NCBI RefSeq assembly: GCF_000381045.1
Contig: NZ_KB905736.1
Location: 1 to 64,000, forward strand
From: Thermus scotoductus DSM 8553
GTDB lineage: Bacteria; Deinococcota; Deinococci; Deinococcales; Thermaceae
Direction: 5' to 3'
DNA length: 64,000 nucleotides
The translations under genes were made by a program, and so were the position numbers. The notes below the pieces were generated by a model. It had not been told where the DNA came from. It saw nothing but the letters and a program-made list of their open reading frames with translations, and made no database searches. Below are positions 53,762 through 58,732 of the stretch, piece by piece. Within the stretch, counting starts at the first letter, position 1, and the number at the start of each line of letters is the position of its first letter.

Positions 53762-53792
53762 GAGGCTGGGCCTACGCCCAGCCTCTTTTCTC
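53762..53792 (+). terminator. Rho-independent terminator between groEL and dnaE
   Basis: 10-bp stem GAGGCTGGGC/GCCCAGCCTC with CTAC loop, followed by TTTTCTCT. It ends the groESL transcript at the edge of the convergent dnaE. Confidence 0.85.
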
Positions 53793-56700
53793 TAAAAGGG
53801 CACCACTTCCTCCTTGGGCCCTCCTCCACCGTTCCCCTGGAGGAAGGCCTCCCGATCCGGGATCAAGTAGGCACGGAAGCCCTCGGCCTCGAGGGCCTCG
53901 AAAACACCTTCCCCCACCCGGGTTTCCCGCAAGGAGAAGATGGCCTCACCGAAAGGCCCCTGCACCCTGAGGTAAAGGGGGAGGGTTCCAGGGTATTCGT
54001 CCAAGAGGCTCTTCAGAAGGGCAACACCCCCTTCGTCCAAAAGGGCATGGTCTACCTCCACCTCCAGGGCCTTGGGGGCCTCGGCCACCTCCTCGTGGGT
54101 CCAGGCGGCCTGGGCCATGACCCTAAGCCCCCCTTCCTCCCGCTCCACCTCCGCCAGGACCAGGAGAGGGGTGTCCTCCTTGAGCTTGGGAGAAACCCCC
54201 TCGTAAGCCCGGCCGAAAACCACCACCTCGAGGGCCCCTGTCTCATCGGAGAGGGTAAAACGGGCCATCATGCCCCCGCTTTTGGTGGGCTTGCGCGCCA
54301 CCTCCTCCACCATGCCCGCGAGGAGCACCCTGGGCCTTGGGGGAAGGCCCCGGATGAAGTCGGAAAGCTCCTCCAGGGTGCAGCTCGCCACCTCCCTCAG
54401 GCCCGGGTAGCGCAGCACCGGGTGGCCGGAAACATAGATGCCCAAGGCCTCCTTCTCGTAGCGGAGCCGGGTGATCTCGTCCAGGGGCAAGGCTTCCGCC
54501 AGGGGAGGTTCTTCCACCTCGGCGAACAGGCCCATCATGCCGGATCGCTCCCGCTCCCGGCTTTCCGCCGCCCACCGGAGGAGGGGGTCCAAGGAAGCCA
54601 GCAACCGGGCCCTGTCCCCAAAGGCGTCAAAGGCCCCCGCCTTGATAAGGGACTCCAGGGTGCGCTTGTTCACCACCCTCTCGTCCAGGCGCTTGAGGAA
54701 GTCCCCGAGGCTCTTAAAGGGACCACGGCGCTCCCTTTCCGCCAGGATGGCCTGGGCTGCCCCTTCCCCCACGTTCTTCACCGCGGAGAGGCCAAAAAGG
54801 ATCTCCTCCCCCACCACCTTGAAGTCAAAGCCTGAGCGGTTGATGTCGGGGGGAAGGACCTCTATGCCCATGGCCCGGGCGTCGCGGATGTACTCCGCCA
54901 CCTTGTCGGAATCGTGCCGCTCCACGGTGAGGAGGGCGGCCATGAACTCCACCGGGTAGTGGGCCTTCACGTAGGCGGTCTGGTAGGAAAGAAGGCTGTA
55001 GGCGGCGGCGTGGGAGTTGTGGACGATCACATCCTCGGCCAGGAAGGTATGGGTTCCCTCCACGGTGAGGTCGTAGACCTCTTCCTCTCCCAGAGGCTCT
55101 ATGGCCTCCACCCGGTCCCAGTAGATCTCCGCCGTGGCCAGGCGCAACAGGGCCAGGCTTCCCGTGAGGGCCGAAAGGCGCGCCAGGGTGGCGCGGGAAA
55201 GCCCCAGGCGGCCCTTGCTGGGCCGCAAAAGACCCTGGGCTAAGCCATGGGCCTCCAGAAAATCCCCCACCCTACCCCCGGAAGCCTGGGCCAAAGCATC
55301 CCTTACCAGGGGGAGAAAGCCCAGAGGCAGGATGTCCTTGGTGCTCCGGCCCACCTCCTTCCAGGAGGAAAGAAGGGCCTCCAGGTCCCGCTTCCTCTTG
55401 CCGAGAAGGTAAGGCCCCACCCGCTCCCCAAAGCGCCGGGCCGCCTCGAGGCCCCCCAGGAGGTAGACCACATATCCTTTCCGGCCCCCTCCATAGGGAA
55501 AGCGCTTCTCCACCAGACGGCTTTGCAAGCCCAGGCGGAGGAGGAGGTGCTGGACCCCGCGGGCAAGGGCCTCGGAGGCCGTGGCGTAATGGATGAGCCT
55601 ACCCTTGGCGTCCACTCCCCCATCCCCCACCCACAGGCGCCCAAGAAGCCGGGCCACCCCTTCCTGGGAAAGGCCAAAGACCCTTTCGGGAAGATGCTTG
55701 TCCTTGGCGGCAAGCCCCAAAAGCCCCATCTCCCTCAAGAAGGTTTCCGCCTCCGAGGGAAGCTTGCGGTCCCGCCGGCCCACGTAGATATGGGCTACCC
55801 CCCGGCGCCAGACCACCCGGGTGCGGGTGTTGGCAAAGCCCGCCAGGGCCTCCTCCATAGCGGCCAGCTCTTCCTCCGAGGAGGTGTAGAGGTAAAAGCC
55901 GGAGGGATGTCGGAGGTTTCCCTCGCTAAGGGCGAAGCCCAGAAGGTCCAGCTCATGGGGCTTCAGGTCCTCTGAAGGCTGGTAGGGAAGGTGCCTGGGC
56001 AGGGCCACGAAGTCCCCTGGGCGAAGGGTGCCCAACTCCCGCCAACCCTCTGGGGTGTAGAGGGGGTGGTTGGCCGTGGCCTCGAGGACCCGTCCCGTGG
56101 CGGTGCGCAAACGGTAGACCATGGCCCGGCCGCTTTGGAAGGCGGCCACCACCGGCCTCGGCACCAGACGCAGGGTGCTCTCGTCCAGGGAAACCACCCA
56201 GACCCCTTTGGCTTCCCCCCGGACGATGGCCTCTATGGGCACAAGCTTTCCCGTACGGTAGTCCAGCACCCGGGCCCTTCCCGGCAGGCACTTGTTGAAG
56301 CCGTAGTTGGCGAAGGCCTCCAGCATGTCAAAAAGCCGGTTGGCCTCCTCCTCGGGCACGCCCCGTTCCCTGGCCCCCCGCACGAAGCGCTCTCGGTGCT
56401 TTTGCATCTCCTCCACCTTCTTCTTGCCCATGGCCCGCCTCAAGAGGTCGGCCTCCCCCAGGGAGTAGCCCGCCACCTGGGAGGCGATCTGCATGATCTG
56501 CTCCTGGTAAACGGGGATGCCGTAGGTTTCCTCCAGGATGGGCCTCAGGTACTTCTCCGCATGGGGGAATTCCACGTAGCTCACGGGCTCCTGGCCGTGG
56601 TGGCGGCGGATGTAGGTGGGGATGTGCTCCATGGGCCCCGGGCGGTAGAGGGAAACCAGGGCGATGATGTCCTCGAGGCGCCTGGGCTTTAGCCCCCGCA

Positions 56701-58732
56701 CCGTGGCGGTCATTCCTCCCGATTCCAGCTGGAAAACCCCCTTGGTCTCTCCCCGCGCCAAGAGGGCGAAGGTCTTGGGGTCGTCCAAAGGCAAGCGGTC
56801 GTAGTCCAGCTCCACCCCCTTGGACTCCTTCACGATCTTCTTGGCCTCGTCCAGGAAGGTGAGGGTGCGCAGGCCCAGGAAGTCCATCTTCAAAAGCCCC
56901 AGGGCCTCCACCGCTCCCATGTCGTACTGGGTCACGGGCCGCCCCTCCTGGTCCCGCATGAGGGGCACCAGGTCCGTGAGGGGCTCGGCGGCGATGACCA
57001 CCCCGGCGGCGTGCACGGAAGCATGGCGGTTCAGGCCCTCGAGGCGCATGGCCACCTCGATCACCTCCCGCACCCGCGGGTCCTTTTCCATCTCCGCCCT
57101 TAGCTCCGGCACCAGCTCTATGGCCTCGGCCAGGGGCTTGGGCTTGCCGAACTGCACGGGAATCAGCTTGGCCAGCTCCTCCGCCTTCTTGTGGGGGATG
57201 CCGTAGACCCGGGCCACATCCTTGAGGGCTGCCTTGGAGGCCAGGCTACCGAAGGTGCCGATCTGGGCCACCTTGTCCTCCCCGTAGCGCCCGCGCACGT
57301 ACTGGATCACCCGGTCCCGCTCCCGGTCGGAAAAGTCCGTGTCGATGTCGGGCATGGAAACCCGCTCGGGGTTCAAAAAGCGCTCAAAGAGGAGGCCGAA
57401 GCGCAGGGGGTCGATGTTGGTAATGCCCACGGCATAGGCCACCAGGCTCCCGGCGGCGCTTCCCCGGCCCGGCCCCACGGATACCCCATTCCGCCTGGCC
57501 CAGTTGATGTAGTCCTGGACGATGAGGAAGTATCCGGGAAAACCCATCCGCTCGATCACGGAAAGCTCGTAGAGGGCCCGGTGCAAGATGGCCTCCGCCG
57601 TCCACTCCCTCACCCCCTCCAACGGGGGTAGCTTGGGCAGAAGGGCTTCCCAGGCCTTCCCTTCCACCTGGGCCAAGGCTTCCGCCAGGGCTTCCCCGTC
57701 CCCGTGGGGCGGCATCTGCCCCAGAAAGCGGAAAACCTCCCGGTAAAACCCCTCGGTGATGCGGTCCGGATAGCGGGAAAGAAGCCCCTTAAAGGTGAGC
57801 TCCCTCAGGTACTGGGCCTCGGTCCTGCCCTCGGGAAGGGGAAAGCGGGGGATGCGGTAGACCATCTTGCCCCCGATGGGCAGGTCCACCTCGCACATGC
57901 GGGCGATCTCCACCGTGTTGTCAAAGGGTTCGTCGCCCCACTCCTCCTCCGGGAGCATGGCCCGCATCTCCTCTGGGGTCTTCACGTAAAACTCGTCGCA
58001 GGGGAAACGCCAGCGCTCGGGGTCATCCAGGGTGCTCTTGGACTGGATGGCGAGAAGCACCTCGTGGGCCCGGGCGTCCTCCTTGCGCACGTAGTGGCCG
58101 TCGTTGGTGGCCACCATCCCCAGGCCGTACTTCCGGGCGAACTCCCTCAGAACCTGGTTCACCTTTCTTTGCTCGGGAAGCCCATGGTTTTGGATCTCTA
58201 TAAAGAAGCGGTCGCCGAAAATGGAGAGGTATTCGTTAAGCCGGGCCTCCGCCAGGTCCAGACGATCCTGCAGGATGAACTGGGGAATCTCCGCCCCCAG
58301 GCAGCCCGAAAGGGCGATAAGACCCTCGGCATGCTCCCGTAGAATCTCCCGGTCAATACGGGGTTTTTCGTAAAAACCCTCCAGGTATGCCCGGCTCGCC
58401 AGGCGCACCAGGTTCTGGTAGCCCTTGAAGTCCTTGGCAAGAAGGGTGAGGTGGAAGTACCCCCCGTCTAAGCCCTTCCCCCTTTTGCGGTCAAAGCGGC
58501 TTTCCGCGGCCACGTAGGCCTCGTAGCCGATGATGGGCTTGATTCCCATGGCGGTGGCCTTCTTGTAGAACTCCACCGCCCCGAAGAGGTTGCCGTGGTC
58601 GGTCATGGCCAGGGCAGGGTCCTCGGGGGAAACCGTCTTCACCCACTCAAGAAGGTCAGAAAGCTTTGCCGCCCCGTCCAGGAGGGAGAACTGGGTGTGC
58701 TGGTGCAGGTGGGCGAACTTAAGGCGGCCCAT
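53792..58732 (-). CDS. dnaE: DNA polymerase III alpha subunit with intein
   Basis: 1646 residues, of which 815-1239 are an intein; the spliced polymerase would be 1221 residues, as in T. aquaticus. PHP domain at the N-terminus (FAHLHQHTQFSLLDGAAKL, metal-binding His), palm with catalytic PDIDTDFSD (about 461-469), thumb and fingers (TIGTFGSLASKAALKDVARV type region, then MDFLGLRTLTFLDEA), beta-binding and OB-fold region (about 1450-1540, LAGMVEEVARKPTKSG), and C-terminal domain. Main replicative polymerase. The intein interrupts the highly conserved ANYGFNK-SHAAAYS segment. It converges with groEL and has no obvious partner gene. Confidence 0.97.
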   Translation of the reverse strand: MGRLKFAHLHQHTQFSLLDGAAKLSDLLEWVKTVSPEDPALAMTDHGNLFGAVEFYKKATAMGIKPIIGYEAYVAAESRFDRKRGKGLDGGYFHLTLLAKDFKGYQNLVRLASRAYLEGFYEKPRIDREILREHAEGLIALSGCLGAEIPQFILQDRLDLAEARLNEYLSIFGDRFFIEIQNHGLPEQRKVNQVLREFARKYGLGMVATNDGHYVRKEDARAHEVLLAIQSKSTLDDPERWRFPCDEFYVKTPEEMRAMLPEEEWGDEPFDNTVEIARMCEVDLPIGGKMVYRIPRFPLPEGRTEAQYLRELTFKGLLSRYPDRITEGFYREVFRFLGQMPPHGDGEALAEALAQVEGKAWEALLPKLPPLEGVREWTAEAILHRALYELSVIERMGFPGYFLIVQDYINWARRNGVSVGPGRGSAAGSLVAYAVGITNIDPLRFGLLFERFLNPERVSMPDIDTDFSDRERDRVIQYVRGRYGEDKVAQIGTFGSLASKAALKDVARVYGIPHKKAEELAKLIPVQFGKPKPLAEAIELVPELRAEMEKDPRVREVIEVAMRLEGLNRHASVHAAGVVIAAEPLTDLVPLMRDQEGRPVTQYDMGAVEALGLLKMDFLGLRTLTFLDEAKKIVKESKGVELDYDRLPLDDPKTFALLARGETKGVFQLESGGMTATVRGLKPRRLEDIIALVSLYRPGPMEHIPTYIRRHHGQEPVSYVEFPHAEKYLRPILEETYGIPVYQEQIMQIASQVAGYSLGEADLLRRAMGKKKVEEMQKHRERFVRGARERGVPEEEANRLFDMLEAFANYGFNKCLPGRARVLDYRTGKLVPIEAIVRGEAKGVWVVSLDESTLRLVPRPVVAAFQSGRAMVYRLRTATGRVLEATANHPLYTPEGWRELGTLRPGDFVALPRHLPYQPSEDLKPHELDLLGFALSEGNLRHPSGFYLYTSSEEELAAMEEALAGFANTRTRVVWRRGVAHIYVGRRDRKLPSEAETFLREMGLLGLAAKDKHLPERVFGLSQEGVARLLGRLWVGDGGVDAKGRLIHYATASEALARGVQHLLLRLGLQSRLVEKRFPYGGGRKGYVVYLLGGLEAARRFGERVGPYLLGKRKRDLEALLSSWKEVGRSTKDILPLGFLPLVRDALAQASGGRVGDFLEAHGLAQGLLRPSKGRLGLSRATLARLSALTGSLALLRLATAEIYWDRVEAIEPLGEEEVYDLTVEGTHTFLAEDVIVHNSHAAAYSLLSYQTAYVKAHYPVEFMAALLTVERHDSDKVAEYIRDARAMGIEVLPPDINRSGFDFKVVGEEILFGLSAVKNVGEGAAQAILAERERRGPFKSLGDFLKRLDERVVNKRTLESLIKAGAFDAFGDRARLLASLDPLLRWAAESRERERSGMMGLFAEVEEPPLAEALPLDEITRLRYEKEALGIYVSGHPVLRYPGLREVASCTLEELSDFIRGLPPRPRVLLAGMVEEVARKPTKSGGMMARFTLSDETGALEVVVFGRAYEGVSPKLKEDTPLLVLAEVEREEGGLRVMAQAAWTHEEVAEAPKALEVEVDHALLDEGGVALLKSLLDEYPGTLPLYLRVQGPFGEAIFSLRETRVGEGVFEALEAEGFRAYLIPDREAFLQGNGGGGPKEEVVPF
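55016..56290 (-). mobile_element. Intein in DnaE (425 residues, LAGLIDADG type)
   Basis: In frame within dnaE. It starts with Cys (CLPGRARVLDYRTGKLVPIE), has block B ATANHPLYTPEGW, two LAGLIDADG-like motifs (LDLLGFALSEGN, with Glu where Asp is usual, and RLLGRLWVGDGG), block F YDLTVEGTHTFLAED and block G VIVHN followed by Ser as +1 residue. All splicing residues (Cys1, block B Thr/His, penultimate His, Asn, Ser+1) are present, so it should splice. The first motif's Asp to Glu change leaves endonuclease activity open. Confidence 0.95.

Follow-up and report, generated by a model that had tools for sequence, protein, structure and literature searches.

It has long been asked why inteins cluster at a few residues of replication proteins. 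The dnaE gene of Thermus scotoductus DSM 8553 raises the question at a narrowly defined place: an intein separates a lysine from a serine (the K|S site, the bar marking the junction) immediately ahead of the polymerase's proposed steric gate, and invaded and empty sister alleles of Thermus differ at one codon. This one-codon difference makes it testable whether an allele is cut or resists. The element is of a known kind, a mobile LAGLIDADG intein, and its site is common to many phyla. Taken together, the evidence discussed below makes it very probable that this is a bifunctional class 1 intein with a LAGLIDADG homing endonuclease, mobile in Thermus dnaE and lodged at a recurrent site. All coordinates refer to the window, that is, the whole stretch of 64,000 nucleotides analysed.

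Anatomy of the dnaE intein

Pfam recognizes the DnaE domains PHP, palm, fingers, HhH, and OB in the frame, and within it an Intein_splicing domain (E 7.6e-22) and a LAGLIDADG_3 domain (PF14528, E 2.8e-15), the latter between the splicing halves. The features are as follows.

53792..58732, minus strand: dnaE, precursor of the DNA polymerase III alpha subunit, 1646 open codons plus stop
56291..58732, minus strand: N-extein, residues 1-814, ending in ANYGFNK (from uninterrupted homologues)
56291..56302, minus strand: GFNK codons between K|S and the equivalent of the cyanobacterial Y|C site, which lies upstream of 56302 (from site comparison)
55016..56290, minus strand: intein, 425 residues, CLPGRA...VIVHN, in frame
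56288..56290, minus strand: Cys1, the N-terminal splicing nucleophile (invariant in 50 relatives)
56066..56077, minus strand: block B, T72-A-N-H75 (T72 and H75 invariant in 50 relatives)
55391..55969, minus strand: LAGLIDADG homing endonuclease region, about residues 108-300 (Pfam, structural matches, dN/dS about 0.22)
55919..55945, minus strand: LAGLIDADG motif 1, LLGFALSEG, residues 116-124, with Glu123 (motif reading and alignment of relatives)
55616..55648, minus strand: LAGLIDADG motif 2, LLGRLWVGDGG, residues 215-225, with Asp223 (motif reading and alignment of relatives)
55016..55156, minus strand: C-terminal splicing region, residues 379-425, ending in His424-Asn425 (alignment; boundary as in the dN/dS analysis)
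55013..55015, minus strand: +1 Ser codon TCC, equivalent to E. coli Ser759 (TCC tracks intein presence, AGC absence)
53795..55015, minus strand: C-extein, 407 residues, SHAAAYS... (from uninterrupted homologues)

In nine other Thermus genomes the allele is empty and YGFNK is directly joined to SHAAAYS; the ends of the intein are therefore exact. The preliminary description had placed a 425-residue intein at 55016-56290 between ANYGFNK and SHAAAYS, in agreement with both the frame and the empty alleles. It had also seen a single intein in this gene, and LLRR|AMGKKK, the other site used in Thermaceae, is indeed uninterrupted here. In two relatives (L163 in G047, L164 in G069) the C-extein is 18 residues longer, with an insertion, common to both, some 70 residues past the junction.

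The intein carries the class 1 signature, namely C1, T72..H75, H424, N425, and Ser+1, and it is inserted in frame into a protein with uninterrupted homologues in the nine genomes. All class 1 splicing residues are present, and no mutated one emerges here. C1, T72, H75, H424, and N425 are invariant among 50 endonuclease-bearing inteins at K|S. We infer from these residues that the DnaE precursor would be translated with the intein included and that Cys1, His75, His424-Asn425, and Ser+1 would excise it, joining YGFNK to SHAAAYS.

An AlphaFold model of the intein has a mean pLDDT of 94.2. Its top Foldseek matches are the endonuclease-bearing TliVMA intein (7qss) and PI-PfuI (1dq3), followed by mini-inteins and I-DmoI. 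The first two are the closest solved whole-intein structures and likewise combine a splicing domain with a LAGLIDADG endonuclease, but they come from archaeal hosts and share 18-19% identity with the Thermus intein. The nearest profile family is that of the DnaB inteins (NCBIfam PRK07773, E 3.3e-72; Ssp, Npu, and Thermaceae DnaB), which belong to the same size class and carry a LAGLIDADG endonuclease, but interrupt a different host gene at LRESG|CL...HN|SIEQ. A DnaE intein is already known from the same genus and is likely of the same family. Phage records gave no close match, and plasmids weak DnaB-type matches only.

The same genome (G000) encodes a DnaB intein of 219 residues from which most of the endonuclease is gone (L001, G000:C16; 428 residues in relatives), and this intein is a decayed sister element. 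An RtcB-type protein contains a further intein of 482 residues (L004, G000:C11). With inteins in DnaE, DnaB, and an RtcB-type protein, the genome thus has at least three.

The endonuclease and its probable mobility

The preliminary description remarked on Glu in place of Asp in the first LAGLIDADG motif. The residue is there, as Glu123 of LLGFALSEG, but to read it as a lesion would be mistaken. E123 and D223 are each conserved at 90% or more among the 50 endonuclease-bearing inteins at K|S, so that Glu is the family state rather than decay, and a defect at this residue is ruled out by that conservation. Of 92 aligned inteins, 62 pair a motif 1 Glu with a motif 2 Asp. Both motifs thus offer acidic catalytic residues (E123, D223), and PF14528 and the structural matches place an endonuclease fold between the splicing halves. 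In I-DmoI, a Glu at this kind of position is catalytic, and the entry for its E117A mutant shows such a residue to have been the object of functional study.

An alternative is that the intein splices but no longer homes, the endonuclease with its Glu for Asp being a vertically inherited relic. The motif acid has in fact been lost in some relatives, with Glu to Lys in motif 1 of three (G046, G068, G071) and Asp to Gly in motif 2 of one (G058) in the alignment; the endonuclease is apparently dead in several Thermus relatives and mobility is therefore not universal. Synonymous divergence also usually runs higher in the intein than in the extein (median ratio 1.42), which favors vertical descent. 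The conservation of Glu123 and Asp223 and the glutamate of I-DmoI, a structural match, argue the other way, as does the rate of protein change. By region, the median dN/dS amounts to 0.22 for the endonuclease part, 0.23 and 0.12 for the N- and C-splicing parts, respectively, and 0.12-0.17 for the exteins; the first of these values implies purifying selection on the endonuclease region. Moreover, between G000 and two other genomes the intein is closer than its host gene, being less diverged than the extein at synonymous sites (G000-G048, p 0.0011; G000-G052, p 0.00066). The same comparison for G050 and G070 gives 0.035 for the intein versus 0.197 for the extein, a ratio of 0.18. G000 and G053 share a block of low divergence in the endonuclease, set within more diverged flanks, which suggests that this block has been exchanged. 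We consider a non-homing relic improbable.

The distribution of the intein within the genus is patchy. Of the 25 Thermus genomes scored, 16 have it at K|S and 9 are empty, and mapping presence and absence on a dnaE extein tree, built without 60 codons on each side of K|S, requires 8 changes. Two broken assemblies, G061 (intein present) and G064 (empty), were left out of the counts. A natural split intein at K|S in G061 was considered and rejected: its exteins are broken too, so the interruption reflects frameshifts. A genome of a sister genus (G071) also has the intein.

For a mobile intein, homing would proceed as follows. The endonuclease most likely recognizes an empty dnaE across AAC AAG|TCC CAC and cuts near the junction, and repair from an intein-bearing copy would then install the intein together with the nearby flank. 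The purifying selection, the transfers, and the flank codon described below bear on such cutting indirectly.

The K|S site and its neighbors

The idea of a hot spot, put forward in the preliminary description, gains from the wider distribution, as K|S is occupied in at least about 19 phyla besides the 16 of 25 Thermus genomes. A pattern scan of public genomes, one per species, for FA.Y.FNK followed by Cys returned at least 118 stretches, from which native FNK-CH polymerases (mostly of Alphaproteobacteria) and chance matches were set aside. The remainder includes at least 71 complete K|S inteins, mostly from metagenome bins, and both counts are lower bounds. Among the matches listed, the inteins are 117-461 residues long and all end in HN before Ser-His.

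The cyanobacterial split DnaE inteins (Ssp, Npu) interrupt the same host protein four residues away and share the Hint splicing fold. Their site can be placed at Y|CFNK from two sources: in the Synechocystis intein structure 1zde the flanking extein stretches KFAEY and CFN are retained, and one cyanobacterial genome has FAEY|CLTY... at one end and ...SN|CFNKSH at the other. This puts the cyanobacterial site four residues upstream of K|S, where the preliminary description had placed it. Unlike the Thermus intein, which lies in a single open frame, the split inteins are divided between two genes; they also have Cys at +1, lack His before the last Asn, and form a separate lineage.

Could the two inteins be one element that has shifted by four residues? 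The proximity of the sites and the common intein fold would fit such a shift, which can nevertheless hardly be credited. In trees built from the splicing regions (quick trees of 152-153 columns with long branches), the Y|C inteins form one group (support 99-100) whose branch is 2.7-3.5 changes per column long, and they end in Ala/Ser-Asn before Cys+1, as against His-Asn before Ser+1 in the Thermus K|S intein. The two lineages are separate in these trees, in keeping with the earlier suggestion of two independent inteins. No K|S intein was found in cyanobacteria: in the 15 of 39 matches read, the host was DnaB in all 13 readable loci. The pattern N-CFNK-C, which would mark a cyanobacterium with both DnaE inteins, occurs 15 times in 386 Cyanobacteriota genomes, never in dnaE, and these matches are attributable to chance.

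The K|S inteins themselves do not follow their hosts. Those of Thermus group with that of G034, from the same family, and with a Bacteroidota bin (support 99-100), and those from other families of Deinococcota cluster with one from a Methylococcaceae bin (support 98 and 93 in two trees); the intein tree is not congruent with that of the hosts. In the best tree the main K|S group (96 support) leaves out two others, of Chloroflexota type and of Rokuibacteriota type. Up to three separate invasions of K|S may have taken place. Another reading of the hot spot is shared descent: one ancient K|S intein would have spread and later been lost, without repeated invasion. A tree with all K|S inteins in one clade is compatible with the data (AU p 0.30, rejection fails). 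Against a single ancestor stand the two groups outside the main one, the mixture of host phyla within the main group, the separate Y|C lineage only four residues off, and further sites in the fingers region of the sampled loci (RR|MGKKK, ETYGI|VYQEQ, FQLE|DGMKR). We regard a single ancestor as rather unlikely.

The first of these further sites, LLRR|(S)MGKKK, lies 48 residues upstream of K|S and is occupied in G061 (Thermus) and G024 (Thermaceae), G061 having inteins at both LLRR|MGKKK and K|S. This second site, with double occupancy in one Thermus assembly, would accord with the more than one DnaE intein that the preliminary description mentions for T. thermophilus strains. At LLRR|SMGKKK the residue after the junction is Ser in the intein-bearing genes (L162 of G061, L180 of G024) and Ala in intein-free ones. 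The two other sites, ETYGI|VYQEQ (L087; also written ETYGI|CVYQEQ) and FQLE|DGMKR (L133; also written FQLE|SDGMKR), occur in genes that each have a K|S intein as well.

A related LAGLIDADG gene was observed in 14 of 60 genomes of one cyanobacterial family (f155). In 12 of 12 loci read it lies between the dnaE-N and dnaE-C genes of the split Y|C intein; tandem halves with the endonuclease gene between them were noted at L243 2487-3293 and at L246-L257. In most loci the beginning of dnaE-C shares 8 bases with the frame of this gene. The endonuclease gene, intact in most cases, evolves under purifying selection (pairwise dN/dS about 0.16). By its position between the split halves, the neighboring Y|C also looks like a homing site, and the arrangement may represent a stage on the way from a whole homing intein to a separated split intein. 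Endonucleases between split-intein halves have reportedly been found in other genes, as so-called fractured genes. In another cyanobacterium (G252, L244 2756-3448), a gene for a Uma2-type putative endonuclease occupies the space between tandem dnaE-N and dnaE-C.

The steric gate and the serine codon at the junction

Alignment to E. coli DnaE chains, with no length change, places the junction at K758|S759 in E. coli numbering, with His760 next. In the E. coli enzyme the steric gate that keeps out ribonucleotides is proposed to be His760, and Ser759 packs against the palm. Cloning succeeded for only 9 of 38 substitutions, and the changes S759C, S759N, and S759T give mutators (PMC8485763). The preliminary description had called the site irreplaceable and made this the cause of the hot spot. 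The first part fits a junction that adjoins the steric-gate residue; for the second we propose the following. If the residues corresponding to E. coli Ser759 and His760 are hard to replace, imprecise loss of the intein would be lethal and the target DNA would stay conserved, so that the site would persist.

The first codon after the junction differs between invaded and empty alleles of Thermus. This pattern was found on inspecting the flanks and was not predicted beforehand. Ser+1 is encoded by TCC in 17 of 17 intein-bearing Thermaceae, G071 included, and in intein-free Thermus by AGC in 7 of 9 and TCC in 2 of 9 (G045, G067). The association has a Fisher p of 5.5e-5, with kinship ignored; in independent sister contrasts, 6 of 8 agree, 0 are opposite, and 2 are equal (sign test p 0.031). 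Among the 1155 positions variable in these contrasts, nucleotides +1 and +2 have the top score, 6, ahead of 4 for the next best, and 28 columns of control Ser codons show 3 single switches between TCN and AGY. The association is confined to Thermus: across phyla, TCN at K|S is found in 62 of 92, versus a background of 66%, and there is thus no bias. It also fades within a few bases, and hence no long co-conversion tract is seen.

Read from sequence, these patterns point either to a codon carried along with the intein, through co-conversion or exchange of the entire site, or to AGC alleles that escape the endonuclease. Resistance would go further in that the +1 codon would set the fate of an allele in Thermus, TCC being cut and invaded and AGC resisting. 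Single-step changes from AGC to TCC pass through Thr or Cys, and since S759T and S759C are mutators (PMC8485763), AGC would then be a stable immunity allele. Such control by one codon is possible, and we offer it tentatively.

Alphaproteobacterial DnaE proteins (L039, L051, and others) natively read FNK-CHSAPYA, with Cys at +1 where others have Ser.
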